Origin: Liolophura sinensis
Lineage: Eukaryota > Mollusca > Polyplacophora > Chitonida > Chitonidae
Reading direction: 5' to 3'
Length of the DNA: 64,000 nt
NCBI RefSeq assembly: GCF_032854445.1
Contig: NC_088303.1
Span: 13,087,501 to 13,151,500 of the forward strand
Shown here: positions 15,434-42,842 of the stretch, in pieces
Layout of the letters: every line of letters starts with the position of its first letter
Numbering within the stretch: position 1 is the stretch's first letter
Position numbers and translations under genes: made by a program
The notes under the pieces: model-generated
Databases searched by the model: none
Told to the model about the DNA's origin: nothing
The model's input: only the letters and a program-made list of their open reading frames with translations

Positions 15434-18400
15434 CTGCAAAAAACAAGTTAAACAGTTCTACTCAGATGTACAATCCCTACATGAAGACATCAATACGAAA
15501 TTAAAAGAAAAGACAACACCAGACCGAATGCTAACTTACATCAATAAAGTATCCCACATGAAGTATAAACCACACCTTTTATTTTTGTTTTTGCGATGAC
15601 AACTGAGATATCACACTTCAAAGTAAGCAAACTTATATGCCTATGAAGACCATTTACCAAAAGCTTCAATGGCATGGTATCAATTTCCACTAATCAGACA
15701 TGAGCTATTTACACACATATAACCTGAGAAAACAGCTGTTTCTGCTGATGTCATAGGAACCCTCTTCTACCTTTTAGTATAACAAGTGTGTGAAGGTGAG
15801 GTACAAGAAATGTAACATTGTGTTTCATGTTTCTCAGCACAGCTCCATCAGAATACCAGATGGAAAATTCATTTCCAAGTTTATCAGACTGAAAGTTGAT
15901 TTATAAAATCACCAAGCACATCAGATATCAAGGTATTCAGAGAACGCCAGAAGCTCGTCTGATTAACCAGTTCATAAAACTGCATAATGTTCCATTCACA
16001 GGATACATTCAAATACTAATCTCTACACCCGAATAAAGTAGAATGACTGACACTGTCATACACAGGGATTATTGTCTAATTAGACAGTGCTAAGATCTTG
16101 CCATTAAATCAACAAGAAAAGGCCAAAATTATTACACTGTCACAACTAAGAATGTTTATCGTATGTGTAAGGATTGCACGGCGGTGAATTTGTATATTAT
16201 TGAGTTGTAAATCATTGTGGCGGTAAAAGACACTGTTGGAGATCGTGCACAAATTTACCACACAAGTCACTGACAGGCAAATTGCTAACTGAATTTGGCA
16301 ATCCACGTAGTATGGGTGGTAACTGCAACCCTGTGAATGCTGAGCTATGAGGTAAAAATCTTTCTTGGTATTTGATACGCAAATCACTACCGACAACTGG
16401 CCATCTGTGTAATATGGGTGGCCACTGCAAATATGTGATTGCCTCAGTGATTCTCACAGGTCACTGCGGTTGTCATGTCTATACCCTGTCCTCAACCTTT
16501 CTGAATATGTAAGAGCATCTTTCACTGCCATTTATACACACTGGTTGGATTGGACAAATTTCACAAAACGTGTAATTTTATCAGTGTACACAGAATAATG
16601 CCTTCAGAATAAGCTTGAATAAACACCTTGCAAACATGCGAAAGGTTGAAGAATTACAGTAGTACCTAAAACATCACTGATTCTCCCCAGTCACACAGGC
16701 ATGAACCTAAAACAGGTTGCAGCACAAGTTTAGACATCGATCATTTCAACAGCCATTACATTAACAGCCACATTATTTAAGTGTAAAAATTAACGATACA
16801 AACAATGAAGCCAAAGTAGATAAAATAAGACAGCACTTACATAGAAAATTGCGTATTCCTTGAGGTTTATTCTTCCACATGACACCAAGCACGTAGACGG
16901 GGATGCCAGTAAACACCATGATAATCGCAATTAGACATTCCTGAGGGCTTGCAGTGAGAGGCGTGATGATCAGGAAGATGCAAATTACCAGGAAGATGAT
17001 TGGGAAGATGATATTTACCTGTAATGAGAAACATTAAAACTATGGAGAAATAACCATGTCAAAGGGAAGGTATGGACAAATGATATGCTCAAAGGGTAGT
17101 CAAATTTAGGGTAATTACGAAAAAATTAAAAAATAGTGGAGGGGTAGTCATGGGGAAATAACCAGGAGGAAGGGTAGTCATGGAGAAATAACCAGGAGGA
17201 GGGGTAGTCATGGGGAAATAACCAGGAGGAGGGGTAGACATGGGGAAATAACCAGGAGGAGGGATAGTCATGGAGAAATAACCAGGATGATGGGTAGTCA
17301 TGGGGAAATAATCAGGTGGAGGGGTAGTCATGGGGAAATAATCAGGAGGAGGGGTAGTCATGGAGAAATAACCAGGGGGGAGGGGTAGTCATGAGGAAAT
17401 AAGCAGATGGAGGGGTAGTCATGGGGAAATAACCAGGGGGGAGGGGTAGTCATGGGGAAATAACCAGGAAGAGGGGTAGTCATGGGGAAATAACCAGGTG
17501 GAGGGGTAGTCATGGGGAAATAACCAGGTGGACGGGTAGTCATGGGGAAATAACCAGGAGGAGGGGTAGTCATGGAGAAATAATCAGGAGGAGTGGTAAT
17601 GTTGGGGAAATAACCAAGTGGATGGAAGTTGAGGACTACAGGGCCATTATGCCCAAAGTTATCTCCCTTCACCCAGCAACATACATGTATTTGTTAATCA
17701 GGTCAAGTGGGAATACTGCACGATGGCCCAAAAGTTCACATGATCGCCCTAAAACGGAGTGAGGATTGGTCAATGTCAGCATTTGTAGGTCACAAAATAG
17801 GTTCACTCATCTGTGCATTCCAAATTATAATATGAGCATAACCAGGGTTCGTACAGGTATTTGAAAATGAAATTCAAGCAGTTTTTTGTCATTTTCAAAG
17901 CTAGTTTAAACATACCATGGTGCAAATTATAGATTATATTTTAAGTCTGAATTATAGATGCTTTAATTTGCATGCATGAATATTGAATAGTACGCTTGCT
18001 TTTTCAAGAAATATCTGCCCTTCACCTATGTAATGCAACATATTCTTTGACCTGGCCCTGGCTCAGTCAAACAAATGAACGCCATATATCATTATTCAGG
18101 GCTTCCACTGGGTCAGTATTTTTACTATTTTTTCCAGCCAGTCACTTAAGCCACTCATCAGACTTTGTAGTAAATACTACTTTTCTTTAGCCACACTTCC
18201 TTAGCAGCCTTGACTCTTGTAGGTCTCCTTCTGTAATTCGTTATTATCTGCCATGGTGCAGCTGCTAGAATCAGTTTGGTCTCTTCCAGCTATATCTGGA
18301 GTTCATCAAACGTTACATTTAGAACAACTGAGCTCAAAATAATGGACCAGGGCTTGGCAGCATGTTTTTATTTTTGAAAAAAAAAATCAATCCTTTTTTC

Positions 18401-20855
18401 AACCTATCCGTAGGATCCTAGTAAAATGTAATTTCCTCTATCAGAAAATTTTGTTACGGAATTAATTTGTAAATTCAGTTTATTTAAATGCAACATTATG
18501 ATCAGTACATAGGAGTAACACAGTCTGACAGGAGAAAAGCAGATGGCGTACACATATATCTAACAGCCTATATTCTGAAACATTTAATTTACTTCGGATC
18601 CAAAACAAAATTGTTTATTAAGTGGAAAGTTTAAATTTTTTATGGGAGGTAGCTTCATTTACAGGTATAACTCTACCCTGATTTATTTCCCTTGATAATT
18701 TTTTTTTCAATTGGTGATGAAAGGCATCCTCCAAAATGCCATGATTCTCCTTTGTTATTTAACAAAAATCATTTCACGTGTTATTTAATGTAAGTCAACT
18801 TGCCGAGATGAGGCCGTTTGAAATGAAAGTAAGTACATTATTTTCATAAGAAAAATTGTAAAAATCTCCTAAACACACCAGAAAACTCTCATGGTAGATT
18901 TTGTATAACATTTGTATTTTTTCTTAAGCAAATAAATTTGTCGCCAAAAACATTCGCATTTTTTCAAATTTTATCGCCATTCCAAAAAATTGTTCTCAAT
19001 TTGCAACAATGGCGAGTGTGAGCGGAAGCCCTGATCATGGGAGAACTATGAGCGAGCTCCCGATATACAGACTAAACGGTGAGCAGACAACATTTAAGTT
19101 CATGACAAACTAAGGTTTTCAAGCAGTTTCCAGGGGTATTTGTCTTTTTTAAGGACTTTCAAATACTTGAAAATGAAATTCTATTTTTCAAGCACTTTCA
19201 AGGGGTTTCGAGGACTGTGCCACCCTGATAACACAGTACTTTTTGAGGCAATCGGTCATTGTATCAAGCCTTGTATATTACAGCAGGGTGGAAACTGGTG
19301 CCAAAATTATAGCAAGGAGACAAGACTAAGAAGAGACTATATCCTGTTTCCTTGAATGTTGCTTACTAAAGATTTCTGTCACTTTGACAGTGATGGTCAG
19401 TTATATGGCTGGAAGAGACCAGTGTGTTTGGTGTAGACCACCGACATTTGGTAAGTTACGAACAAACCCTTCCATGCATTTGTGATGCACACATATCCAG
19501 ACCATATTGCTCAAAGACTTAACAGTTTCTGACGGGGCAATCAGCGATAACAGCATCCTCAATTGACTGTTCTAACCAAGGCAAAACAACAAGTGACAAC
19601 GACGAATCTGCACATTCTCCATGCCTGAACCCACACCTTGTGCGTCCTTGAGATTGACAGGCATGCACTGAACCCACACCTTGTGTGTCCTTGAGATAGA
19701 CAGGCAAGCATTGAACCCACACCTTGTGTGTCCTTGAGATTGACAGGCAAGCACTGAACTCACACCTTGTGTGTCCTTGAGATTGACAGGCATGCACTGA
19801 ACCCACACCTTGTGTGTCCTTGAGATTGACAGGCAAGCATTGAACCCACACCTTGTGCGTCCTTGAGATTGACAGGCAAGCATTGAACCCACACCTTGTG
19901 TGTCCTTGAGGTTGACAGGCAAGCATTGAACCCACACCTTGTGTGTCCTTGAGATTGACAGGCAAGCACTGAACCCACACCTTGTGTGTCCTTGAGATTG
20001 ACAGGCAAGCATTGAACCCACATCTTGTGTGTCCTTGAGATTGACAGGCAGGCCTCTCTAACCACTAGCACACAGCTCAATCCCGAGCAGTGTATATGGC
20101 TTACTGTCACAACAGGCGATTTAAATTGCCCGCTGCCCAACCAAACACACCTGCACATCAAAATTTACAAACACACCTGCACATCAAAATTTACTCAGAA
20201 TTATACGACAGTTTATCAAGACAGGTGTATCCTTTGTTAACATCTCTAAATAATGCCATTAAGATGATTAACATTACCTTTATTGGCCTCTCCATATTTG
20301 GTCGGCTGTAGCGTAGATATAGCATACCACAGACAGAGAGCCCAATAAAAGAGGACTCCACAAAACTGGCGTAGGTTATCAGGGCGTAGACATCACTGGA
20401 GCACAGCATAACCAAGGACATGATACACTGAAACAGTGGAAAAATATACATGTATATAGCTACCTGTACACTGGAACAGCGGGAATATATGCATGTATAT
20501 AGCTGTCTGTACACTGGAACAGTGAGAAAACATACGCGTATATAGCTGCCTGTACATTGGAACAGTGGGAAAATATGCTTGTATACAGCTGTCTGTACAC
20601 TGGAACAGTGGGAAAATATACACGTATACAGCTGCCTGTACACTTGAACAGTGGGAAAATATATGTATACAGCTGCTTGTACACTGAAAAAGTGGGAATA
20701 TATACACGTATATAGCTGCCTGAACAATGAATCAGTGGGAAAATATATACATATATAGCGGCCTTTACACTGGAACAGTGGGAACATATGCATGTATATA
20801 GCTGCTTGTACACTAACAGCGGGAAAATATACATGTATATATGTATATATATATG

Positions 20856-20887
<32 letters not shown>

Positions 20888-23800
20888 TAAAGCTGTATGT
20901 ACACTGAAACAGTGGGAAAATATACATGTGGATAGCTACCTGTACAATGGAAATGCAGGGAAATATACATGTACTGTAAATCTTCAACCTCTTCTGCCAC
21001 TGAAGCACTTTTTTAAGTGAAATTTATGCAATTATTATGAAAATGACACTGGCAATGATTTGTTGGTGTCAATTAAGACACAAGCTTCAGAAAAACTTGG
21101 CAAATTATTTCTCAACACCCCATACAAGTAGTTCTGTCACAATGTTTCAGTTGAAAGGCTGGACTGTGTACTGGAACAGTGGGGCAATATACATGTACAT
21201 ACACCTAACAAAATGAACATGTTTTATACTAAACTTACCCCAAACAGAAGAGCAGGCATTGGAGTGAAATACTTCAAATTAATGGTGGCCAAAAAGTCCG
21301 GCAAATGACCTGCTCGAGCACCAACAAAGAAGAGTCTGCAAGAAGGAAATAACTGCTACACGTACGTAACACACTAACATTGGTTCTGATACATGCGAAA
21401 CTGAATCTTAACTGTTAGCACTGAATACATTTCTTCATTTTTCAGCGGTGTTTTTGCAAAGCTGCAGATATATCAGCACTATAGGGAACATCAATGTAAA
21501 GTAAATTTTAGAAGTTTATTTCTCAGAAGACCAGGAAGCAATAACAAAGACCCATTCTTCATTTTTCAGCGGTGTTTTTGCAAAGCTGCAGATATATCAG
21601 CACTATAGGGAACATCAATGTAAAGTAAATTTTAGACGTTTATTTCTCAGAAGACCAGGAAGCAATAACAAAGACCCACAACCACCAACCTTGCTGAAGT
21701 GAAGATAGCACCATTCAGTCCACCGAATGTTGAACACGCCACAAACAATGGCATTATCCATGCCATTACGCCCAGTGTCCTGTTTGCAAATGTCTGTAAG
21801 AAACAATAGAACAATTGTAGTGGTACCCTGGTAAAAACTGGAAACCATTTGTAAACAGAAGACTCTGGCATTCAGTATAGGTCTGCCATTGAGTACACTA
21901 AATGTAAAGGCCAATTTTATACTGCACGAAATTTCCACGTCCGGCAGCAAATGCTGGACGTGTGTCGCAGCATGCAGTAGAAATTACACGTGCGTGACAA
22001 TGCAGCAAGCTGCATGGATTTTGTGGTGCGGCTTGCAGAGGAAATTGTCCTTAAGACTATAATGCTCCAAACCACGAGCACACCATTACAATCAAACATA
22101 TTCTGGGTAGAATCTGTGACTCACTGAAAACTGTCTACCTACACAAGCTTGACACATTCACAGGGACAGTGCAGTAAACACTAAAGCTGCCATGATACTA
22201 GCTTCCATGATCAACATCAGCTGTGATTACAGATGAAAGCTCTCCTCTCCCAGACACCACCTTCACAGGCCCTGAGTTCCATGCTCATCCCCTCTCCTAG
22301 GACACACTCACCTTCACAGACCCAGAGCCCCATGTTCACCCCCTCTCCTAAGACACACTCATCTTCACAGGCCCAGAGCCCCATGCTCACCCCCTCTCCT
22401 AACACACACTCATCACAGGCCCAGAGCCCCATGTTCATTTCCTCTCCCAAGACACTCTCACCTTTACAGGCCCTGAACCCCATGTTCATTTCCTCTCCCA
22501 AGACACACTCACCTTTACAGGCCCTGAACCCCATGTTCATTCCTTCTCCAAAACACACTCACCTTCACATGCCCTTCACAGCCCCGGAGACCCACGCTTA
22601 ACCTCTTTCTTTAGACACACTCGCATGTCACATTTGAGATGGCTACACACCAGCGACAGACTACAGCAGGTGAATCATGATTACACACATGGCCACAGCG
22701 TCAAACCCCAGTGGGCAAGTCATGACCACACAAAAAACTTACCACTGCCACAGTGTCAGACTCCAGCAGATGAGTCACAACCACACACAAACCCCCACGG
22801 CCACAGCGTCTGAGTCCAGAAGATGAGTCATGATTTCACACCAAACTTATCACGGCCTCAGCATCAAACTCCAACAGGTGAGTCATGATTACACACAGAC
22901 ACCAAATGGCCACAGCACCAGACTCCAGCAGATGAGTCATGATTACACAAAAAACTTACCACTGCCACAGTGTCAGACTCCAGCAGATGAGTCACAACCA
23001 CACACAAACCACCATGGCCACAGCGCCAGACTCCAGCAGATGAGTCATGATTACACAAAAAACTTACCACTGCCACAGTGTCAGACTCCAGCAGATGAGT
23101 CATGTCTACACAAAAAACTTACCACTGCCACAGTGTCAGACTCCAGCAGATGAGTCATGTCTACACAGAAAGTTACCATGGCCACAGCGTCAGACTCCAG
23201 CAGATGAGTCATGTCTACACAGAAAGTTACCATGGCCACAGCGTCAGACTCCAGCAGATGAGTCATGTCTACACAGAAAGTTACCACTGCCACAGTGTCA
23301 GACTCCAGCAGATGAGTCATGTCTACACAGAAAGTTACCATGGCCACAGCGCCAGACTCCAGCAGATGAGTCATGTCTACACAGAAAGTTACCATGGTCA
23401 CAGCATCAAGCTCCAGCAGGCGAGTAATGCTGAATGTTAAATGTGATGACAACAGTATTTTGAGTAATTCCAGACAAGTGATGTCTAATAAACTGCAATT
23501 AACCTGATGGAATCTTTTTACGTGATTCTGCCATGGTGCTAGGAACAGTTAGAATAAAACCCTGACTGAGGTAAACTAACAGGAGGCCATATTTCATCAC
23601 ATACGTGTGACCATTTGCCAGCTATCCCACTCTCGTCACAGCCACAGCAACAAACTCCAGCAGTTCAGTCATGACTACACACAAACTCGTCACAACCACA
23701 GCAACAAACTCCAGCAGTTCAGTCATGACTACACACAAACTCGTCACAACCACAGCAACAAACTCCAGCAGTTCAGTCATGACTACACACAAACTTGTCA

Positions 23801-25247
23801 CAGCCACAGCAACGAACTCCACGAGTTCAGCCATGACTACACACAAACTCGTCACAACCACAGCAACAAACTCCAGCAGTTCAGTCATGACTACACACAA
23901 ACTCGTCACGTCACAGCAACAAACTCCAGCAGTTCAGTCATGACTACACACAAACTTGTCACAGCCACAGCAACAAACTCCAGCAGTTCAGTCATGACTA
24001 CACACAAACTCGTCACAACCACAGCAACAAACTCCAGCAGTTCAGTCATGACTACACACAAACTTGTCACAACCACAGCAACAAACTCCAGCAGTTCAGT
24101 CATGACTACACACAAACTTACCACAGCCACAGCATCAGATTCTAACAGCTCTGCTGGAGAGAGGACGGAGAAATATGCGACGTTTGCCAGGACATAAATT
24201 ATCGTCACTAGGGGAATGGAAATCCATATCGCTCGGGGAAGATTTCTAATCAACAAAAAAACAATCATCAGTCAAACAATACACAAGTCCCACTGTTGGA
24301 TCAGTGTTTTACAGAAAGTCAATATTACAAAAAACACTGAAATGACAATAATCCTAGAAACTCTTGTTTTCCCTATTCCACCCAGCACCTACTCCTAAAC
24401 TCTTCATTACCCTTATTATCCCTGTTTCACCTAGCAGACATTCATGAACTTTTTATCCTGGTTTACCCAATTTTGAACAGCAGGTACACACAAACTCTTG
24501 TTACCCTTGTTCCACCCAGCAGCTACTAACAAACTCTTGTTACCCTTGTCTCCCCTCTTTCCCTGTTACCCTTGTCTTATCTATTCCACCTAGCAGCTAG
24601 GCACAAACTCTTGTTTTCCCTGTTTTGCCTAGTAGCTAGACACAAACTTTTGTTACCCTTGTTTTCACTGTTTCTCTTAGCAGCTACTCACAAACTTTTG
24701 TTATCCTTGTTTTCCCTATTCCACCCAGCAACTACAGACAAAGTCTTGTTACCCTTGTTTTCCCTGTGCGTCACACTGCATATGAAAACTTACTGTTAAC
24801 ACGGACACAATAAACTTTGTTGAAACATTGTTTCCAAAGATGTTTCAAGTAACAGATTTGCAGGTACCCACCGACTGTTTGTCCTGCATCAATAGACTGT
24901 GTGTCAGAGACAAGTGAAAATTAGCACCAAAACTGTGCCTTGGAATGAGTTCAATCAGAAAATGTTTTGGAGAAATTGTGTGCACAGGTAATTAACACAG
25001 ATGGACAGCTGCAAATCAAAATGATGGGGAAAAAAATGAAATTTGATAATTTCTTTATCAAAAAACAATTCATATCACAAGAATTTATTGACATCGCATT
25101 TAATTTCTTACTTGTAAGGATTCTTCAATTCTTCAGTGACAAAATTTAGGTAATTCCTGTAAAAAAAAAAAGCAACATTATAAACATTTTCAGAAGCAAA
25201 ATAACTTTGGGCAATGCATACAGTAAGACATAGAAAACCAGACTTTG

Positions 25248-25326
<79 letters not shown>

Positions 25327-28300
25327 TACACATATATACATGCATATTTATCCATAAAGAAACTATACATAATTATATGTCAAGGCTGAGAGCAACAGCA
25401 GTGTGACGTATTTCTTGTATCTGTAACTTCCCTTTATTGCACATAAGACATGAAAAAAAGGAGACGAAAAAGCAGACACCTAATGCACAAGCTGGATTCT
25501 AACTCTGACATGACTAAATGACGCGAGTAATGCAAGCCTTGTGCAATCTGACTTTCCACTTTCAAAAGCTAGAAGTCAAAAAAAAAGCCATACATAAGAA
25601 CATTTTACTTAGATGCGCAGAAGGAACTCATGACCATATTATGTACTTGAAATTTTAGCAAAATTCAGCAGTCAAAGAAGTTGTCCAAAGTCAAATCAAA
25701 ACAGCAAACTGAATACACTGTTACGCAATTATTTTGGGCTAATTACAAAAATGGAGACTTGGTTTATAGTAAAATCTGGTATTAAGTGTTAAAACAGTTT
25801 TGAACAACCAGAAGCAGTATACTGAATATATGAACTAAATCTGCTGCTATTCCATTTAGTCTCTTTACAACTGTATTGATTGCTGGGTTTTGTTTAAATC
25901 ATATATATGTAATATGACTTATTACAATACATATACTGGTATTAGCTACAACACTCTGGAACATCCGGGCCCAGCATCATAAAGTTACATCAGAAACAAT
26001 CAAACTTGACTCAGTTTCTAATACAGTTCCTGAGAAAATGGAATATAACTGAAAAATTAGTCAAATAAGCTATTTTAAAAGTGGCCACAGAAGAAGCGAG
26101 TGAGTGTTTACGGTTTAACATGGCACTTAACCATTTTTCAGTCATATGACGATGAAGGAGTCTTTCAGAGGCCACAAAAGGGTACTATGCACAAAAATTG
26201 AAATGAAAATAAACACAATTTCAGGAAAGGGTCTTGGAGAACAGTTCTGTGTACAGTAAGTATGAACTCCATACTATGCAGAACTTAGTTTTGTTATATC
26301 AACCCATTTGGAGAAGTTTTCTGACAAAATATATGTTTCTTGGTCACATGACCTATGACACACAGATATTTTTTTAGGAAGCATCAATTTGAATTGTGTA
26401 CTCTAAAATGACAAATACATTTCATAAGCATGTCTATATTAGATTTGACCAGAGGACAGGTGCAAACCTTTGGCGACTTAATCTTCACAAAAATAATAGG
26501 GTTTCAACCCTGAATACAGTTACATGATAGTGTGGTAGCTGGCAAATGGCCTGAACTCCTAATTAAAGCTGTTACAAAACAAAATTTCCAGTGTTCAAGC
26601 TGTTACAATAATGTGATAGCTGGTTTCTTCCATTTGGCCTCCATGCACTGCTGTACTGAGATGATCACTTTTGCTGTTGATAAAACATTTTTAAAAATCC
26701 CATAACAAGAAAAAAAAAAGGCTACCAATATCAACGCTTCATCGCATCTGCAGTAGATCAATGGTACAATGAAGGACTGCTGGTACCTCACAATCTGAAA
26801 AAATGTGGATGCTATGTATTACTTTTGCTACACGCTGAACAGATGGATCTGGTACTGTGGTAATGTATGGGAATGGCACACACTCCACATAAGTGGGTTT
26901 CAACATTTATCCATCCATTCATTTTATTTATTTATTTGATTGGTGTTTTACGCCGTACTCAAGAATATTTCACTTATACGACGGCGGCCAGCATTATGGT
27001 GGGTGGAAACCGGGCAGAGCCCGGGGGAAACCCACGACCATCTGCAGGTTGCTGGCAGACCTTCCCACTTACGGCCGGAGAGGAAGCCAGCATGAGCTGG
27101 ACTTGAACTCACAGCGACCGCATTGGTGAGAGGCTCCTGGGTCATTACGCTGCGCTAGTGCGCTAACCGACTGAGCCACAGAGGCCCCTCCCATCCATTC
27201 ATGTTGGCAAGTAATGTCAATGGCTTCTCAAAATTCCAGGCAATGTATGCATCACACAAGTAACTTTAACAGTGAACAAGCATACAAGTCTCAGACTTGT
27301 TCTCTCCCACGCAGATATCGTTACGAAATCTCATTCAACTTGTTCTATCCAATATGGATATTATAATGAAGCCTTGTGTGACCTGTTCTATCCAGTCATA
27401 ATGAAGCATCATGGGACTTATGCTAACCTATAGGGATATCGTAATGAAGCATCATGGAACTTATGCTAACCTATAGGGATATCGTAATGAAGCATCATGG
27501 GACTTATGTTATCCTATATGGATATAGTAATGAAGCATTATGGGACGTTCTACCCGACAAACACATTTTAATGAAGCATCATGGGACCTGCTCTATACCA
27601 CAGGGGTAATATAATGAAGCATCATGGGGCTTGCTCTATACCACAGGGGTAGTGTAATGAAGCATCATGGGACTTGATCTATACCACAGGGGTAGTGTAA
27701 TGAAGCATCATGGACTTGATCTATACCACACCAGTAGTGTAATGAAGTATCATGGGACTTGCTCTATACCACAGGAGCAGTGTAATGAAGCATCATGGGA
27801 CTTCATCTATACCACAGGGGTAATGAAATGAAGCATCATGGGACTTGCTCTATACCACAGGGGTAGTGTAATGAAGCACCATGGGAATTGATCTATACCA
27901 CAGGGGTAGTGTAATGAAGCACCATGGGATCTGATCTATACCACAGGGGTAGTGAAATGAAGCACCATGGAACCTTCTCTATACCACAGGAGTAGTGTAA
28001 TGAAGCATCATGGGACTTGCTCTATACCACAAGGGTAGTGTAATGAAGCATCATGGCACTTGCTCTATACCACAGAGGTAGTGTAATGAAGCATCATGGG
28101 TTTTGCTCTATACCACAAGGGTAGTGTAATGAAGCATCATGGGGCTTGCTCTATACCACAAGGGTAGTGTAATGAAGCATCATGGGAATTGATCTATACC
28201 ACAGGGGTAGTGTAATGAAGCATCATCGGACTTGATCTATACCACCAGGGTGGTGTAATGAAGCATCACGGGTGCATCTCGGGGCTTGCTCTATCCCACA

Positions 28301-31300
28301 GTGACAGAGTACTGAAGCATTATGTGACATTCTATCCAACAAGGACATTTTAATGAAGCATCATGGGACTTGCTCTATACCACAAGGGTAGTGTAATGAA
28401 GCATCATGGGGCTTGCTCTATACCACAAGGGTAGTGTAATGAAGCATCATGGGAATTGATCTATACCACAGGGGTAGTGTAATGAAGCATCATGGGACTT
28501 GATCTATACCACAGGGATAGTGAAATGAAGCATCATGGGACTTGATCTATACCACAGGGGTAGTGTAATGAAGCATCATGGGACTTCATCTATACCACAA
28601 GGGTAGTGTAATGAAGCATCATGGGACTTGCTCTATACCACAGAGGTAGTGTAAAAAAGCATCATGGGACTTGCTCTATACCACAGGGGTAGTGTAATGA
28701 AGCATCATGGGACTTGATCTATACCACAGGGGTAGTGTAATGAAGCATCATGGACTTGATCTATACCACACCAGTAGTGTAATGAAGTATCATGGGACTT
28801 GCTCTATACCACAGGAGCAGTGTAATGAAGCATCATGGGACTTCATCTATACCACAGGGGTAATGAAATGAAGCATCATGGGACTTGCTCTATACCACAG
28901 GGGTAGTGTAATGAAGCACCATGGGAACTGATCTACACCACAGGGGTAGTGTAATGAAGCATCATGGGATCTGATCTATACCACAGGGGTAGTGAAATGA
29001 AGCACCATGGAACCTTCTCTATACCACAGGAGTAGTGTAATGAAGCATCATGGCACTTGCTCTATACCACAGAGGTAGTGTAATGAAGCATCATGGGTTT
29101 TGCTCTATACCACAGAGGTAGTGTAATGAAGCATCATGGGTTTTGCTCTATACCACAAGGGTAGTGTAATGAAGCATCATGGGGCTTGCTCTATACCACA
29201 AGGGTAGTGTAATGAAGCATCATGGGACTTGATCTATACCACAGGGGTAGTGTAATGAAGCATCATCGGACTTGATCTATACCACCAGGGTGGTGTAATG
29301 AAGCATCACGGGTGCATCTCGGGGCTTGCTCTATCCCACAGTGACAGAGTACTGAAGCATTATGTGACATTCTATCCAACAAGGACATTTTAATGAAGCA
29401 TCATGGGACTTGCTCTATACCACAAGGGTAGTGTAATGAAGCATCATGGGGCTTGCTCTATACCACAAGGGTAGTGTAATGAAGCATCATGGGAATTGAT
29501 CTATACCACAGGGGTAGTGTAATGAAGCATCATGGGACTTGATCTATACCACAGGGATAGTGAAATGAAGCATCATGGGACTTGATCTATACCACAGGGG
29601 TAGTGTAATGAAGCATCATGGGACTTCATCTATACCACGAGGGTAGTGTAATGAAGCATCATGGGACTTGCTCTATACCACAGAGGTAGTGTAAAAAAGC
29701 ATCATGGGACTTGCTCTATACCACAGGGTTAGTGTAATGAAGTATCATGGGACCTGCTCTATACCACCGGGGTGGTGTAATGAAGCATCATGGGTGCATC
29801 TCGGGGCTTGCTCTATCCCACAGGGGTAGTGTAATGAAGCATCATGGGACTTGATCTATACCACAGGGGTAGTGTAATGAAGCATCATGGGTGTATCACG
29901 GGGCTTGCTCTATCCCACAGTGACAGAGTACTGAAGCATCATGTGACATTATATCCAACAAGGACATTTTAATGAAGCATCATGGGACCTGCTCTATACC
30001 ACAGGGGTAGTGTAATGAAGCACCATGGGAACTGATCTATACCACAGGGGTAGTGTAATGAAGCACCATGGGATCTGATCTATACCACAGGGGTAGTGAA
30101 ATGAAGCACCATGGAACCTTCTCTATACCACAGGAGTAGTGTAATGAAGCATCATGGGACTTGCTCTATACCACAAGGGTAGTGTAATGAAGCATCATGG
30201 CACTTGCTCTATACCACAGAGGTAGTGTAATGAAGCATCACGGGTTTTGCTCTATACCACAAGGGTAGTGTAATGAAGCATCATGGGGCTTGCTCTATAC
30301 CACAACGGTAGTGTAATGAAGCATCATGGGACTTGATCTATACCACAGGGGTAGTGTAATGAAGCATCATCGGACTTGATCTATACCACCAGGGTGGTGT
30401 AATGAAGCATCACGGGTGCATCTCGGGGCTTGCTCTATCCCACAGTGACAGAGTACTGAAGCATTATGTGACATTCTATCCAACAAGGACATTTTAATGA
30501 AGCATCATGGGACTTGCTCTATACCACAAGGGTAGTGTAATGAAGCATCATGGGGCTTGCTCTATACCACAAGGGTAGTGTAATGAAGCATCATGGGAAT
30601 TGATCTATACCACAGGGGTAGTGTAATGAAGCATCATGGGACTTGATCTATACCACAGGGATAGTGAAATGAAGCATCATGGGACTTGATCTATACCACA
30701 GGGGTAGTGTAATGAAGCATCATGGGACTTCATCTATACCACAAGGGTAGTGTAATGAAGCATCATGGGACTTGCTCTATACCACAGAGGTAGTGTAAAA
30801 AAGCATCATGGGACTTGCTCTATACCACAGGGTTAGTGTAATGAAGTATCATGGGACCTGCTCTATACCACCGGGGTGGTGTAATGAAGCATCATGGGTG
30901 CATCTCGGGGCTTGCTCTATCCCACAGGGGTAGTGTAATGAAGCATCATGGGACTTGATCTATACCACAGGGGTAGTGTAATGAAGCATCATGGGTGTAT
31001 CACGGGGCTTGCTCTATCCCACAGTGACAGAGTACTGAAGCATCATGTGACATTATATCCAACAAGGACATTTTAATGAAGCATCATGGGACCTGCTCTA
31101 TACCATAGGGGTAGTGTAATGAAGCATCATGGGACTTGCTCTATACCACAGGGGTAGTGTAATGAAGCATCATAGGACTTGATCTATACCACAGGGGTAG
31201 TGTAATGAAGCATCATGAGACTTGCTCTATACCACAGAGGTAGTGCAATGAAGCATCATGGGACTTGCTCTATACCACAAGGGTAGTGTAATGAAGCATC

Positions 31301-34300
31301 ATGGGACTTGCTCTATACCACAGGGGTATTGTAATGAAGCACCATGGGGCTTGCTCTATACCACAGGGTTAGTGTAATGAAGTATCATGGGACCTGCTCT
31401 ATACCACAGGGGTAGTGTAATAAAGTATCATGGGACGTTCTATCCAACAAGGACATTTTAATAAAGCATCATGGGGCTTGTTCTATCCCACAGGGATGGT
31501 GTAATGAAGCCCCATGTGACTTGTTCAGCCGAACAGTCATAATTTTCAAGGCCAAGATGACAAAAAGCTAGTCTAATTTTGCAGAGAGGGCTTAAGTATT
31601 AGGGAACTCCAGCCATGCTCCACCAAACAAGTACAGTGTTCAAACACTCACTACCCTCAGGGGAAAATCTGTCATTGTCCTTATTTGAGTACAAGCATCC
31701 TTTCATACATCCATCTGTGTTTAGCAACTTTATCTTCACTCTAGTAGAAACAGGTCAATTTGACTGCAGATTTTAACCATGTGTTGACCTACTTAATCAG
31801 GGAACCACATGGTTCAGCCAGCATAAGCCCTAAGTGTGAGGTTAAAGTATTGTCAACTAAGTGACAGATTTTCCTCAAAATAAAATCTTGTTGTTTGCAC
31901 ATACAGTAGTACACATACACAGATTTTAACCATGTTTTGACCTACTTAATCAGGGAACCACATGGTTCAGCCAGCATAAGCACTAAGTGGGAGGTTAAAG
32001 TAGGTTAAAACACACAGTAGTACACATATACAGTAGTACACATACACAGTAGTACACATATACAGTAGTACACATACACAGTAAAGTGTACATGCATGGA
32101 CTTTTAAAAACAGGCAGCTGTGTGAAATCGCTAAGTGTATCTATCCACAGCTGTAGCAAATGAATCTATCTTGCTGATGTCCCTTTTTGTACTATCGTTT
32201 ACCATTAGTTCAGTCAACGACAGGTGTTTATCTCTGTTAGTCAAGGAACCCATGTGACAAATTTAAACAGATTCATTTAGATCTTTAAATGATCTAACAA
32301 GATCAACACGGAAGATTTTTTCTTATTTTAAAACCCAAAGCTAGCTGTCGGTTGTATTATGCAGAAATTCCACTTACACATGACGCATGAGAATACCCCA
32401 AGATTGTGAGCATCTGGTGGCATCTGACCACACAGCTGGACATTGAAATGTTTTGGAACTGAAGAAATGTACTGTGTGAGTGAGTGAGTGAGTGCTTAGG
32501 GTTTAATGTCGTACTTAACAATTTAACAGTCATGTGACAATGAAGAAGTTCTTACAGAGCTTGTAATGTGCCTCCCTGCTGGAGGGATTTCCATCGCTCT
32601 TTTATCTAGTTCTGCTACACTAAGAGGACTTACCAAAGGCAAGTAAGCCTCTCCACCCGAACCACTATACTGATACGGGTCAACCAGTCATTGCACTATC
32701 CCCTTAATGCTGAACGCCAAGCAAAGAAACTACACCTTCCTATTTAAAGGTTTTAGATGTGACCCCACCCAGGATTGACCCTGGAGCTACCACCCCTGAA
32801 GTGACCGCTCTACCAACTGAGCCATTGGGGCTGCTCAAGAAATGTACAGAACAAATGCCATGGTAGGCTGAGAGACAATATAGAGAGTATTCATGTAAGA
32901 TCACTGAACTGTCACAGAAAATAGGAACTGCTTCGCTGCTTTAATGTTTAGAAAACTGACATATCTGTAGGGTCAGTTGCGTTTCCACAAAAGTGTTCGC
33001 ATCACTAATATTTTGACTGAAGGACAAATCGGAGTTGTTAGAGGCAACACTCGTGGTTCATATAGCCTGTGGTGTGGACACTGCCAGTTTTAGTGAAAGC
33101 GTAATATAAGGACGAAACACTGTGCTGCCCAAGCTCAAGGGAAGACACATGCATTTTTTGAAAATCTGTGACTGGTTAAATATGCTTGTCTCATTTTCAT
33201 TTTACACAAATGCATCATAGGAAACCTTGTCACAATCAAGGCATGTGTTGGTCTGGCCGTCGTTGCAACTATTTTTCAACGTCAAACTTTACTGTTGATT
33301 TCATAACATCTGTGTCCCATATGAGGTCAAGTTATTTCTATGTATGTAACACTGGGCACATTGTGTGCATCTAACATCTCTTCTTAAATGTCACCCCTGC
33401 ATAGTAGGCCTACTTAGTACAGACAAGGTAAAAATGTGAAAGTCTTATTCACAGTTCAGCAGAACTCACCATCCTGCGTAAGAAAAAAGACCTGAATAAA
33501 AGGCTAAGGCAAACTTCCCTGGCTCCCGAGTAGATTCTTCAAACGGCTGCTGGAAACTTTCCGTGGAGCCTGAAACAGAAAAGACAGTTTGCATGAACTG
33601 AATGACAAGCTGATTCTAGAATGGTGCCAAAATCAGACTGATGTCCCTTTGTGCAGACTTATCTCCCTTTGTAGGAAGATCTTGCCTACGTACACATACA
33701 TGTCTGGCATGGTAAACCACGTGTATAAACATGTCTCTTGCATTGAACGATGGATTAAGTACATGTAGATTGATAATGTTTTGTTATACTGAAACTGTAC
33801 AACATTATAATCGTGATTTGTAAAATGTGCTTCTGGATAATTACCTTTCAGTAATGCAGCTTAAGTGCCCTATCTCACCCTGCAGGAACTATGGTTTGTG
33901 AAATGTGCCTCTAAAATACTGCTTAGTATTACAGCTAAGGTCCCCTACCTCATCTCACAGGAACTGTGATTTAAGAAATAGGCCTCTGAATAATTACAGG
34001 TTGCTGGCAGACCTTCCCACTTACAAAAGAAGAGGAAGTGAGCATGATCTGGACTAGAAGGTCCTGGATAATTACTAGGAGCACGTGAGCATGCCACAAT
34101 GACCCAGAAGCCTCTCACCAATGCGGTCGCTGTGAGTCCAGTTTATCCTGATATGCTCTCCGGCCGTAACTGGGAAGGTCTACCAGCAACCTGCTGATGG
34201 TCGTGGCTTTCCCCGCCGTCTCTAACTGGTTCCCTCCAAATAATGCAGGCGGTCGATGTATAAGTGAAACATTTTTTAATACAACATAAAACACCAATCA

Positions 34301-37300
34301 TGTCAACAAATTACTAGAAACTGTGCCTAGTAAATAAGCTGCTGGTCATTACTAGGAACTGTGCTTTGTGATATGGCCTTCTGGATAATCATCAAGAACT
34401 GTACTTTGTGGAATGGGCCCCTTGCTAATTACCAACAACTGTTTTTTGTGAAATGAGCCTTTAAATAATTACCAGGCACGGTACCTTGTGGAATGGGTTT
34501 TGGACAATTATCAAGAACTGTACTTTGTGGAGACAATTATCAAGAACTGTGCTTTGTGGAGACAATTACCAAGAAGTGTACTTTGTGGAATAGGCCCCTT
34601 GTTATTTACCACGAACTGTACTTTGTGGAGATAATTACCAAGAACTGTGCTTTGTGGAGATAATTATCCAGAACTGTGCTTTGTGGAGATAATTATCAAG
34701 AACTGTGCTATGTGAAATGAGCCCCTTTTCACAATACATTGTCACTGTATGGCAGCAACACTATAACTACATGTCCATGCAGGAAAATCCAAAAACAATT
34801 CATCACAGGTGTTTACATCATCTCCTTCATTCAAGACAATCAATAATCACAACATTTATCATTTCCCATCGAGTACATAATGTTTAGTGTATGCACTGAT
34901 CTCTCAGAGGACACAGAGTTTTGTACATACATGTACCTTTTCAAAATTCTTCAAATTACGTACATTTAGTTTCTTTATTTTTTTTCGCATGGTTAGTCCA
35001 TCTAATAAACAACATACCCTAATTCTTTAACCTTTTCAACTGCCTATATATTGCAACCAATAATTTGAAACATTCTAAGAGAACTATGGGTGTAGAGAAA
35101 TAATTTTCACAGTCTTATGAAGCTTGCGTCTTTGATGACACAGGCAAGCATTTTTTGTGTTATTTTCATGATAACTGTATGCATAAATTTCAGTGAAAAA
35201 AGTGCCCTGGTGGTTGAAAAGTTTGAAGATTTACAGTATTCCTATCTTTACTTTTCCACAAAAACTGGAAGAGAAATAGTGATTTTTTGCTTTCAGGACT
35301 ACTAATATCCATGGTATCTGTCCAGAAAATTAAAAGCCATGTCTGGTGCACAGCTTTGGACACATGTGTATACTACATGCCAGTGTGTACTACACTCTCA
35401 TGTGTGTACAACATGCTCATGTGTGTACAGATATATAACATTTTTATAAACCATACACATACATGTATCTCGGTATCTTCATGGGGTCTTGGTGGCTAAA
35501 AACAGTGGACAGTGTTCTCCTGTGTGGTCTGACATGAAGTTCAACGCTAGCATTCCATAAATGGGACCTACATATACATGGGAAAGTTAGCCAGCATATT
35601 AACATAGTATACCTTATTCAAAGAGTCATAAGCCTGGTATTTATTATGTTACATGTAAAGTAGAGGAAGTCCAATTTCACTCATATTAGAATGAGACTGG
35701 TACATTCACCTGTGGATTTAAGCCTTGCTCCACTTAAAATAACAGCCCTAATGGTTTAATTCAGTTTCTTCCACAAAGAAAGGTGATGGCCATTGTACAG
35801 TATATGTAAACAATTTCCAAGTATATGTAAACAAGTTTCAAATATACGTAAACCATTTTCAAGTGTACTATAGCACTGAACGACCATCAAATATACAACA
35901 ACCACACAAACAAATGAATACCCCAATAATATTTTCCTAATTCTACTGCAATCAGTCTTTAATACTGATGTGAGATGTAACATTCGCTATCTCTTTCTAC
36001 CTCATACTCTAATATCAAACCTGTCCCTGTATGCATCTAACCTTGACATTACTGTTATCACATAACCTTTACATGTTTTATCAATGTTACATTAACGTTC
36101 TGTATTATAACAAATCTGACCCCATGACCCGTGATTGACCTGTGACCTTTAGCTAGGAGGTGATAATGGAGTGACATAGAGCAGAGTGTTGTGGACACTT
36201 AGCTAAGTCAGGTTTTCACAGGATAAATAGGCTGTAAACTCTGATCTGCCAATCCTTCCCTCATCTATTATGAGGGACACATTCAACCTGTGAACAGCTG
36301 TCAAAACAAGCTTCCATGTTGTGAACACAGCACCCTCAAATGTCAATTATAACACCCCTCTTATTACAGCTATCAACACTCATCAGGGTTCACCCTGCAC
36401 AGCATACTAACAATTTAGGGCGGCTTACACAATGCACAAACAAACCCAGGAATTTTATCACAGAGGCCTTGTTATGAAAAATTATAACAGCTATATTCAT
36501 ATAACAAACAATAAATGAAAATATTCGTTTCTAAATAAACTGAAAATAATACTCTCTTGATACATTTTCAATTGAACACTGAAGGCATGATTTTGTAATT
36601 TAACAGCTACATACACTGATTACACATGTAGTTGTTCAAAATTTCATACTAGGTTATTTCCAATCACGAAAACTTCAGCAAATTTAAGAAGGTTGGAGTT
36701 TTACCTTTAGGCACTCTAGATGTAAAAGTGATGTAACCTTCTGAATTCAATTTTATGCTTAGCTCAGGACTTACTATATTAGTATGATCTGCATGTATGA
36801 TGCCTAGATGTAAAAGAGGCTATATGATATTCTGGGTGTCCCTTAACATTCCTTCTGTGTACTGTGTGAACACACATGTCAGCCATATCGACAGGCAGGT
36901 CTCATTGCACAATGTATATATGGAGGTTTCAGCACCCTTAGAATTAATAACCGTCACAGGTGGCCTGCACATCACCTAAATTAAAAAGCATACACTCCTT
37001 CGGAGTTTTACACCTGGAAAGCCAAAATTTACTACTTTCCCCATCCTGAAGTGAGTAATTTTTTCTCTACAACACCCTCGACCCCCGCATTAAGAACACA
37101 TATTGAACTCAATTTTATTTTAGCAACCCATGTTTAGCAGACATTCATATACATGAATTGTTTCTTCCAATGCTTCATTAATTCAGTTCCAATGTAAACA
37201 TAACGTATTGAAACAATGAGATGTATTATCTGTGTTTCAAGGGATACATACTTTCTTCAGTCTATGTTTGCCAAAGTTGAATTTAAGGTATGATACATTT

Positions 37301-40300
37301 ATTCAAGCATGACCAAGGCTGAAAGATTTAACCCAGGAAAGCCTATGTCTACTGTCAGACAATCAGCATCGATTCTGCATCCCTTTAGCAGCAATATGTA
37401 CAGGTACATTATAACTGTGCAAGTGTCCACAGTAAATTTGCTTCAACAAACTTCAGCTTGTGCAATTCACCACATTAGTGTCATTTGCTTGTATGCTTGG
37501 GGTTTAACATTGAAAGTGTTGTCAACCGTATTTAGCCACCAAGTCCAACACAGAGAGTGGAATCTACAATTCTCTGTCCAAGAATCAGGTTTTTAACCTG
37601 CACTTTGTGTGTCCAACTGAAAGGCAAGCTCCTCTAACCACTATACCACAGCCCAGTCCCTTGAAAGAAAACCCTGCAACGAAGCTATAGGTACTTCAGT
37701 TTGCATACAAAAGCTCCTTCAATGTGAGCGATTTCCGCGTCTTGTGTGATCGCAGCTAACATGTAGCTCTGGGGTCGGTTTCGTGAAGCTTACTTAGTGT
37801 TAAGTTGCCCTTAGCTAAGTGCACTTTATATCCCTACAACATATGTTGCCAAGATAGTTAAGTGCTTACTTAGTTAAGTGAGCCTCATTAAACCCGCCGC
37901 TGCATATTTGTACCTTTGATTACACTTTGGTAGAGATATGCATCCTTATATTTACTTTTCTTTGAGTAGTGCCTGAATTCTGCAGCTTCACACCTCAGAC
38001 ATTTATCTTGTGTCTCCTACGGCAGTACAGAGCTGCACAAATATGCACGCTACAGTTTCAGCGGGCCTCACCTTTAATCCTTAGCAGCCTGCCTGTCTCA
38101 AAGTTCAATGCCCCCATGAGATGTGCAGAACCACTTGTAGCTAACATGTAAGTGTGCACATGCGAAAATGTGAGGCACTTGCCTTGTCCACAGAACAACA
38201 TCAACATAAACCAGCTTATCTATTTCATTATTTATTTGATTGGTGTTTTATGCTTTTAGGAAACTGGGCAGATCCCAGAAAAAACCCAGGACCATCCACA
38301 GGTTGCTGTCAGACCTTCCACCTAAGAGACAGCCAGCATGAGCTAGACTTGAACTCACAGAGACTACACTGGTCAGAGGCTCCTGGGTTATTGTGTAGCT
38401 GTAGCAATGCTACATGCTGATCACTTAGCAACAGAGGCCTCACCAGCTTAAGCCTTACATGTATTAATGTTTATCATTACATCATCATTAACAGTAAGGT
38501 TTGGCATCAGAACCTTTAATGTTTTTCTAGATATGGCTGTGCAAGGTCTACGCTGCCACACCCAGTGCAGGCCGGTAACCAGTATTACAAGTGAGGTGGG
38601 GATGGGAGGCAGTCATACAATGGTAAACGAAACTATCCAACCCTCAATTTTTTTATACATGTAGGGGCCTAGGCGGCTCAAAGAAAGCTCTAAGATTCCA
38701 GGCAACCCCTGAGGGATGTGTTCTTAATGCTTTTTGGATCTTTAAAAATATATACAAACAGATGTGAACACGTGTCTAATACCTGCCCCTTTGCCCCACT
38801 GAGTTAAGGACCATGTCTTACCCAAAACCTGATGGATATGTTCCCAAAATATCGACAGTCATCAGTAAAAAGCTGTAAGGTTTTCGAGCTCACACACCAT
38901 TTCCCACACCAATAAAATTCACTGCCATCTTATATAGTGTGAACTTCAACAAATAAATATGTTAAATAACCCGCAATTTCACCGATGACTGCACTGCACA
39001 TTTTACTAGATTTTCAGAATGAAAGTTGATCTTTAAGACAATTAAGCTTGAGATTTGTTTGGAAGGTAGGATGACATCCTACTGAACAAATGCAAGTTTC
39101 AATATAAAAATCAATATTTTGTAACATTTATTTGCCCCTAAAAATGCATGTCTTTGGGTGAGATTTGAACTGATTTACGAACAGTAGACTTGCACAGGGT
39201 ATCTGACTTGCCTTTGCCGATCTCCACGAAGCCAGTGATAATGATGATGATGAGAGCAAGTACCTTGGCCACGGTGAAAATGTCCTGTACACTGGCAGCT
39301 GCTTTCACGTTGTAACAGTTGATGAAAGTCAGCAATGCTGCAGATAAAAAAATATTTAATAGTACTTCATGTTGAGAACAGGCAAAACTTGTCCTGGCCA
39401 AGTATTTTTGGCCCCACTAATTAAAATCTTGACTACTTTATCAATGTTATCATAATGTACATAACAAATATACAGATCACACTTTCTATCTATATTTATA
39501 CGTGATCTAAATATTCATGATATCCAATGGGGGTGGAAATGTCGATTGAGAGGTCCTAAGCTGGTCATGCATTTCCAAAAAGTTCATCCATCCAGCGTCT
39601 TTTCTGAAAATTTCCAACCATTGACAGAAAATAAGCATAAAACAGAGGGCTTATTAAGAGATAGATGTAGATATATGCCTCAAGAGGAACAACATTCTTC
39701 ATTTCAATTAAAACCATAATTTTCGTTTTAGTTTCATTTTGCTGTATCCTTTCCGATCAAAAACATTGTGTACGTGAATCCGTCATGCAAAATTTTAGCC
39801 AATCAAAATCTGAGACAGTCCATTCAAATGATGGGTGGACAGGTGTCGGCTAGAAGTGTGTCAGCCCAACTACACTCACTAAACATGTCACCAGCATTTC
39901 CAACTTAGATTAACATTTTTTCTGGTTTAATTAAGAGAAACTTCAATACTCATGTCACATTGTATTCACATATCTACAGTGTACATGTATATCTATAGTG
40001 TCAATGGCATTTGAATTCTAAATATAAATTTGGTGCAATGTGCACAAAGGTTTCGATCAATTGGGAAACAATGTCAAAAATATCAATATAAATTGATGCA
40101 CTTTAATTCTAAATATGAAAATTCCCCTGTTGTACATGTACCGTACTTCGGCAACCTTTTCGCAAGAAGCGGGCAGTAAACTTTCGAAGAAGTTGGGATT
40201 GAATCCATGGCATGCAAATGGGGAGATTGGGAGTTACAATCATGACAAAATACTAGTCACTCTGTATAATATTTATCAGAAATATTAAGTTTAAAACTAT

Positions 40301-42811
40301 TACAGACCACAGGTGGTTGCTGTGTTCATTTCTCAACACGACAGTAATCTTAATCTTGTGAGAGCATCTGTGTACGGCTCTTGTGCGCAAAACATTTTTA
40401 TGTTGATCCTTCCCAAAATCTGCACCAGTAATTGTATATATCTCAAGCTACATTTATTCCTTGTTTCATATATCATACTGTATTTAAAATTACCTGTGGC
40501 ATATGGCTGAACTGCTACAAGCTGAGTAAATACAATGTGATTCATCTAATCAAAACTTTCAGTGACTCAGAAGTTGAGAGAAAGATTTACCTCGAAGCCC
40601 CTGAACATAAACATTCACGCGGGACCTCAGGCCGCCTTGTTCTAGAGTACAATCTGCCAGGGTTACAATGTACAGTACCACATTTAAAATAATGTGTTAT
40701 TTACGTAGGTTTGTTTGCTTTTGGACACATAGTATATATGTATATAGCTACATGTCTGTAGGACATATGCTTACAATTATGCGGGGATTATAAAAATGAT
40801 AAGAGTCTGAGCCTACTGCAGTGAAGTATGGGACTTTTATTTAATAATAAAAGCTAACCTGCTTTCAACGTGTAGATGTTGGTTTAATCATATGTGCAAT
40901 ATATAGATGTACTAAACCCCCTTATGTACACTCGCCAGAGATACAGGTATAGGCTGCCTTACATCATGTAAAATATACTCTTCTCTTTCCGTGCACACAG
41001 AAAAGGTTGAAGAAATAGGGTGCCTTGACGGAAATAGCAAAAAATACGTCTACATCTAACCTCTGTGTATCAGAGGATCCGAATACTTCATTCTCTTTTT
41101 GTGTTTTTTTTCACTCCATACTAAAGAAATTTCCACTTATTATTTAATATGCCATTAGCCTAAAATACTTGACAAAAAAACAGTGCACTGAGTCCTTTGT
41201 GAACTTCAGTGTATTTAATACACCGTTAGCCTGAAATACTTGACAAAGAAACAGTGCACTGAGTCCTCTGTGAACTTCAGTCTCAGCTCTAACTTCCTTG
41301 GCTGTTTCTATTTAGTCGTGACTACCAGATTAATATTTTTGGGACTTACAACAACATCACAAATCAATGTTGTGACAAAATAAGCGTTCCGCAAGGTCAC
41401 TTGACTTTTCCTAACAAAATCTGATCAAATTGCTCTTGAACCTAAGCCTAATAAACATTAGATATTTTACTTTTAACACTGTATTTGACAGGTACATTCT
41501 CATTTCAACTGTCACATTAAAAAATACAAAAAACAGGTAAACTTGATGTTTAACAAGCCAGAAACCCCAGGCTGCTGGTGGATACTGTTGCAGGGTTTTC
41601 ATTTAGAATTGGAGAAGGTCAGAGTTCAAATGTAGCGGCTGAATTGAAATTAATTATGTAACAATTACTATTGATTTAAAAAGTAAGAATATTCAAAATA
41701 GGCGGCTACGTTGGTGGTAGTAGACAGCTGTGTGCAGTCCGCTACTCGCTCTGTTTGAACACCCTGCTGTTGGGTATGAAAGCATCCAGGAATGTCGGTG
41801 AATCAGTGAGTGGACAACAGAATCTTTCTTCGAAAAATACTAGCTTGCAAAATGTGAAGTGGATATATTTAATAGTTTTAGACAATGGATATACCTGTTT
41901 TATGTACATGTATGTATCTACACGTACATTTACCTGAATTTTTACTAGCCACAAAGGAATGGTGGGTTTTTATAGGTTATTGAACAGGTCACAGGAATTT
42001 GAGGTATGTCCTACAGTGCTTTCCACAAACATATAAAGTGTAAGTACAACTTTAAAAACCAATAAAATAATTCAAATTTAATAAAATATAATATTTTATA
42101 TAAAATATTCAAATTTCTTGTAAAACACATTTTTTATCTCACATGAGAGTATAGATAAAGCCAATCTGTTATATATCTGTTATTGTTATGCTACAAGGAT
42201 AAGTATTCTGAATCACACAGAGTATAGATAAAGCCAATCTGTTTTAACTAATCTGTTATATATCTGTTATTGTTATGCTACTAGGATAAGTATTCTCAAT
42301 CACACAGGCAATATGTCCTACACATTCTTTGTATACACAAAAAATAAAATTTAAAAGACAAAAAAAAGTGTTATACTGACAAGTTTTTGAACGGATTTCT
42401 TTATTTATTTATTTATTTGATCGGTGTATTACGCTGTACGCAAGAATATTTCACTCATACGACAGCTGCCAGCATTATGGTGGGAGGAAACCGGGCAGAG
42501 CCCCAGGGAAACCCACGACCATCCGCAGACTGCTGGCAGAGGAAGGACTTGAACTTATTGGGACTGCATGGGTGAGAGGCTCGTGGGTCATTACGCTGTG
42601 CTAGCGCACTTAGCAACTGAGCCACGGAGGCCCCCAGTTTTGGAATTGATCATTAATTGTTAATCGATAAACTTTTTACTTTTGGAACAAACTTTTACTT
42701 TTGGAAAAATGACCAAAGTAAGACTTACAGTATGAGGAAGCAGTGGAAATTCTTGCCTAAAGTTGTTCCCTGAGTGAACACCCAACTCCTCACCCCCACC
42801 CCCCTACACAT

Positions 42812-42842
<31 letters not shown>

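Follow-up and report, generated by a model that had tools for sequence, protein, structure and literature searches.

In the window, by which we mean the whole stretch of 64,000 nucleotides analyzed here from the mollusc Liolophura sinensis (genome size 609 Mb), the end of exon 5 of an SLC7 gene, its splice donor and the first bases of intron 5 formed a 54-nt junction block that was repeated in register across two arrays, A and B, within intron 5. We consider it probable (roughly 0.85) that these arrays arose by neutral tandem amplification of the junction in a minisatellite-rich genome and that they form an intronic minisatellite of the 'mirage' type, serving no function of its own, with splicing taking place at the outermost copy. 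The amplification in this gene was not a one-off, as comparable arrays were found at both donors and acceptors of paralogues and of other gene families.

The gene was of the SLC7 light-chain (LAT) type and ran on the minus strand from about 44.0 to 16.8 kb of the window, where nine exon matches were recovered by tblastn with a LAT2 query (Table 1). The peptide of exons 5 and 6 matched LAT2 in PDB (E 4.3e-29), with alignments displayed for three LAT2 chains and LAT1 and others given as scores only; in this match the LAT2 residues aligned at the end of exon 5 were ELLASNAVAV. Read on the minus strand, exon 5 ended at 24122 with GAGCTGTTAGAATCTGATGCTGTGGCTGTG followed by the donor GTAAGT, in phase 0 at the donor, and exon 6 started at 21793. 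The frame of exon 5 was open at 23906-24271, past the donor and through about four array units, and retention of the intron would add a hydrophobic repeat to the protein. Intron 3 of the same gene contained about 94 tandem units of 43 nt spanning 4.1 kb (27399-31523), as well as a tRNA match on the minus strand (32761-32831; 34.9 bits against a cut-off of 29). Elsewhere in the genome, eight haemocyanin beta-sandwich matches were found in a row on C8; this domain, which we take to mark molluscs, was absent from 14 control genomes.

Table 1. Positions of the SLC7 exon and intron features, the arrays in the window and one array-bearing paralogue. Positions are those of the window unless a contig is given.
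Feature	Position	Strand	Basis
Nine SLC7 exon matches, total span	16842..44008	-	Homology to LAT2
Exon 5, SLC7 gene	24122..24245	-	tblastn with LAT2 and PDB match
Intron 5, 2328 nt, GTAAGT to TTACAG	21794..24121	-	
Functional junction block, outermost unit of array B	24095..24148	-	
Array B, 9 unit slots of 54 nt (one 53, last cut short)	23632..24094	-	
Array A, 15 unit slots (13 of 53-55 nt, last two truncated)	22640..23419	-	
43-nt array in intron 7, holding the exon 8 acceptor (CCACTGTTTCAG followed by TGTA) and the first 4 exon nt	20424..20841	-	
S008 paralogue locus (L008), exon 5 end at locus base 845	C5:11739800-11743800		

The functional junction block comprised 27 exonic nt, the donor GT (24121-24120) and 25 intronic nt. 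An earlier note on this DNA had claimed that a 54-nt repeat of the exon 5/intron 5 junction ran through two arrays, and this was confirmed: the first B unit (24094-24041) agreed with the block at 46 of 54 positions and the eight full B units at 43-47, the ninth being shortened. For array A, where a match of about 43 of 54 had been proposed, the first 13 slots gave 39-44, and the last two, which were truncated, gave 31 and 23. Taken alone, the exonic 27 nt had a best match of 22/27 in the intron and reached at least 20 matches at 20 intron places, every one of which was a unit start. The similarity also held against shuffled sequence, since 22 matches were reached by none of 2000 dinucleotide shuffles and 21 by two of 2000, while none of 2266 real 27-mers from the rest of the window reached 21; together these controls ruled out a chance resemblance of the exon 5 end to the units. 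The exonic part of the seed, previously set at 27 nt, consisted of the last 27-30 nt of exon 5, with similarity extending to about 30 nt. Array limits had likewise been given as 22630-23430 (A) and 23635-24120 (B), and were placed by TRF at 22689-23419 and 23632-24134, the latter including the exon tip. The TRF array extended 13 nt into exon 5, and unit homology covered the full 27-30 exonic nt, so the tandem repeat crossed the exon-intron boundary and took in coding bases, as in a mirage. A further 51-nt array in the same intron (22254-22575), built of AAGGTGAGT units, shared only a 7-nt match with exon 5 and showed no relation to it.

The earlier count of about 23 pseudo-junctions stood for units (9 + 15 slots, three of them truncated) but not for donors. 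GT was absent from all nine B units, which carried AC in its place (ACAAGT or ACGAG). Of the 15 A slots, 11 had kept it, including a pair (23039, 22931) that adjoined alignment gaps. In the raw sequence, array A contained GTAAGT four times and GGTAACT five times, and array B did not contain GTAAGT at all. The B consensus differed from the junction at six exonic and three intronic positions, two of the latter being the GT itself. Between the A consensus and the exon 5 end, five of nine codons differed, four of these synonymously, as would be expected if the coding copy has been constrained since the split. CTG CTG GAG was common to A and B where exon 5 has CTG TTA GAA, pointing either to a common origin of the arrays after they left the exon or to later drift of the exon.

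We evaluated how often exon edges lay within such arrays in SLC7 genes and in a sample of enolase, ATP synthase beta, GAPDH, three GLUT genes and two pyruvate kinase genes, counting an edge when the junction fell inside a TRF array that reached at least 4 nt beyond it in both directions. This was the case for 14 of 224 edges, about one in sixteen, comprising 9 of 113 donors and 5 of 111 acceptors, so that both 5' and 3' boundaries were affected, again as in mirages. SLC7 contributed 8 of 118 edges and the other families 6 of 106, the latter from GLUT (4/32) and pyruvate kinase (2/24), with none among enolase (0/22), ATP synthase beta (0/14) and GAPDH (0/14) edges (together 0/50). Two of the 14 junction arrays belonged to the window gene, without which the count was 12 of 212, and periods ranged from 23 to 76. 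The TRF count used 118 of 125 SLC7 edges, seven having been left out for a weak splice score, and it included two thin matches, glutC (2.8 copies, 6 exonic nt) and window exon 8 (4 exonic nt). The latter, in intron 7, is a thin acceptor-side counterpart within the window gene. In a separate edge test of 63 SLC7 donors and 62 acceptors, window included, 9 of 125 scored z of at least 6.3 and the rest 2.4 or less; outside SLC7, 5 of 106 edges scored z of at least 6. S004 was a match in the z test (39/48) and fell outside the TRF count, as the array that TRF reported for it begins 44 nt into the intron. For glutB, inspection of the sequence led us to shift the donor manually from 714 to 655, its array having been placed one unit further in by the z-score probe count; S014 yielded no homology rows and pkmA2 no intron.

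Several of these arrays held many units. At a pyruvate kinase donor (L061, C2:27445000-27454200) we found about 72 units of 32 nt, and GTAAGCTATG recurred another 54 times along about 2.2 kb of the intron; two SLC7 acceptors and one GLUT acceptor carried 42 units of 64 nt, 34 units of 37 nt and 17 units of 64 nt, respectively. The exon 5 junction itself was amplified at only 2 of the 17 other loci with exon 5, with periods of 61 and 76; 12 of these loci had intron 5 bracketed at both ends. In S008 (C5:11740522), the second of these two paralogues, about 64 exonic nt and the donor were repeated 22 times at 95-96% identity, and GTAAGTTTGG occurs 20 times within the intron in addition to the genuine copy.

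As to the direction of transfer, exon 5 evidently seeded arrays A and B, since its end is common to LAT2 and, in similar form, to 17 of the 18 paralogous loci fetched (those where exon 5 was found), and since a genome search with both array probes, which skips very common words, returned no match elsewhere. The proposal in the earlier note that the seed was an exon/intron junction including coding sequence is supported on this ground. The reverse order, in which the repeat existed first and the end of exon 5 was recruited from it, has next to no chance of being correct: we found no point in its favor, conservation of the encoded protein position rules the repeat out as the source of the exon, and the failure of the probes to report other genomic matches also counts against it. 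A second alternative gives the copies a task in splicing, in that spare donors would be in competition with the genuine one, would delay or extend exon 5, or would give rise to a regulated isoform as in human IFI6. The retention of GT in 11 of the 15 A slots (four units with full GTAAGT), the 20 intronic GTAAGTTTGG copies kept in S008 and a reading frame that stays open for about 70 codons beyond the real donor would all suit such regulation, but every donor in array B is dead (9/9), 12 of 14 junction-array periods would shift the frame, and an array at this junction was seen in only two of the 17 other loci with exon 5, with other periods. We therefore regard a regulatory role as unlikely. 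Only 2 of 14 periods were divisible by 3, giving no sign that copies were kept as coding sequence and no support for in-frame protein variation through array donors. Nor were decoys generally removed. We attempted to score retention of the splice dinucleotide in 15 arrays (12 of the 14 TRF boundary sites, array A, S004, and S008 again) and succeeded in 14, the window exon 8 array, one of the 12, giving no units; retention equaled or exceeded the average for the remaining intronic dinucleotides in 11 arrays (pkmA1 being a tie at two decimals) and fell below it in three (window B, the glutA donor and glutB), so a general loss of decoy splice sites is unsupported. Array B of the window was the clearest exception, with the splice dinucleotide in 0 of 7 scored units and 97% of other intronic dinucleotides kept. 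Loss of GT throughout B would fit selection against decoys in that array, and a single loss before amplification explains it equally well.

The remaining alternative is that splice junctions are preferred seeds, with transcription across the boundary, spliceosome loading or short repeats (GCTGTGGCTGTG) promoting duplication there. Three SLC7 exon 5 donors bearing arrays of different periods (54, 61 and 76) would be in keeping with this, but junctions showed no excess of arrays. Arrays of period 15 or more made up about 20% of the 258 kb sampled, and when they were randomly rotated 37.7 of the 224 edges (s.d. 5.4) were expected to fall in arrays, compared to the 14 observed; nothing therefore marks junctions as hotspots. 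Probe counts agreed, as random intronic points were repeated nearby more often (42/300) than exon edges (9/192, a count in which SLC7 gave 4/86 at z of at least 6, the S008 and S015 junctions were not bracketed, the S009 donor lay one unit too far at z 4.7 and the window exon 8 acceptor reached z 5.0), and mid-exon probes not at all (0/42, with a simpler shuffle and a wider search than the other probe sets). Such a gradient from mid-exon through edge to intron would follow if arrays can originate at any site and disappear from sites where they do harm. Selection against exon-invading arrays could mask a modest excess at junctions; all the same, a preference for junctions is very improbable given the placement and probe counts, which leave the hotspot idea unsupported. 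Arrays seem instead to have no preferred starting point and to last wherever their outermost unit can still act as an exon end.

Under neutral amplification, a tandem duplication would have happened to span the exon 5/intron 5 junction, and slippage or unequal exchange may then have extended it into array A and, with later re-homogenization, array B. Purifying selection would hold the outermost copy as the working exon end and donor, leaving the intronic copies to drift, shrink and grow. We postulate that the array has been tolerated since splicing of the transcript continues to use the outermost copy, for which exon definition, favoring the short exon 5, is a likely reason.

We put the odds as even that introns of this mollusc grow pervasively by tandem amplification of functional splice junctions, often with tens of intact decoys left beside the real site. 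In minigene experiments on splicing, series of near-identical donors or acceptors have to be constructed artificially; here they occur in tens of copies, and at a rate of 14 in 224 edges the genome would offer many natural tests of how the spliceosome chooses among equal sites. If splicing is accurate, genes with junction arrays are natural competition experiments, and exon definition or the order of synthesis, not the sequence of the site, must determine which site is chosen. Junction arrays also provide material from which introns could grow or, by the route proposed through duplicated boundaries, be gained, and their copies may preserve an older version of an exon end.

The structure is of a kind already described, the amphioxus mirages, which were reported from Adh3, the globins BflGb6 and BflGb9 and troponin C, with similar repeats in PGBD5 (PMC3087553, PMC3902484). 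Mirages are unstable in length, differing between haplotypes or tissues. Splicing seemed undisturbed, judging from data on Adh3 and from RT-PCR of globins (PMC3087553), and it was proposed that introns may be gained by way of such repeats (PMC3087553, PMC3902484). The hosts in those accounts were cephalochordates (PMC3087553, PMC3902484), whereas here the host is a mollusc, indicating that boundary-spanning minisatellites are not confined to amphioxus. Our literature search, mostly at the level of listings, returned no boundary-spanning minisatellite in a mollusc; an abalone TSSK1 intron-3 minisatellite (PMC6905558) and earthworm metallothionein repeats (PMC12783039) were not described there as boundary-spanning. 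Compared to the mirages, the present genome adds its largest cases, of 34-72 copies, and a rate per exon edge. Splicing was examined in amphioxus, and the arrays described here come from a single genome assembly. Turri et al. (1995) reportedly described a minisatellite with multiple splice donors in human IFI6 (6-16). In that gene two downstream repeat units serve as donors, resulting in three mRNA species (PMC4526556). Both are minisatellites located at the end of an exon that bring in additional donor sequences; they differ in that IFI6 units are used as donors in mRNA, whereas array B is donor-dead and the A units are at most candidate donors. In potato RdRp, an intron was gained by tandem duplication across an intron-exon boundary (PMC4974935), which likewise spanned the boundary together with splice signals; in L. 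sinensis the intron position is common to the paralogues, and the copies lengthen the intron with no new intron seen. Within the literature searched, the structure is thus known, and its molluscan host and its frequency appear new.
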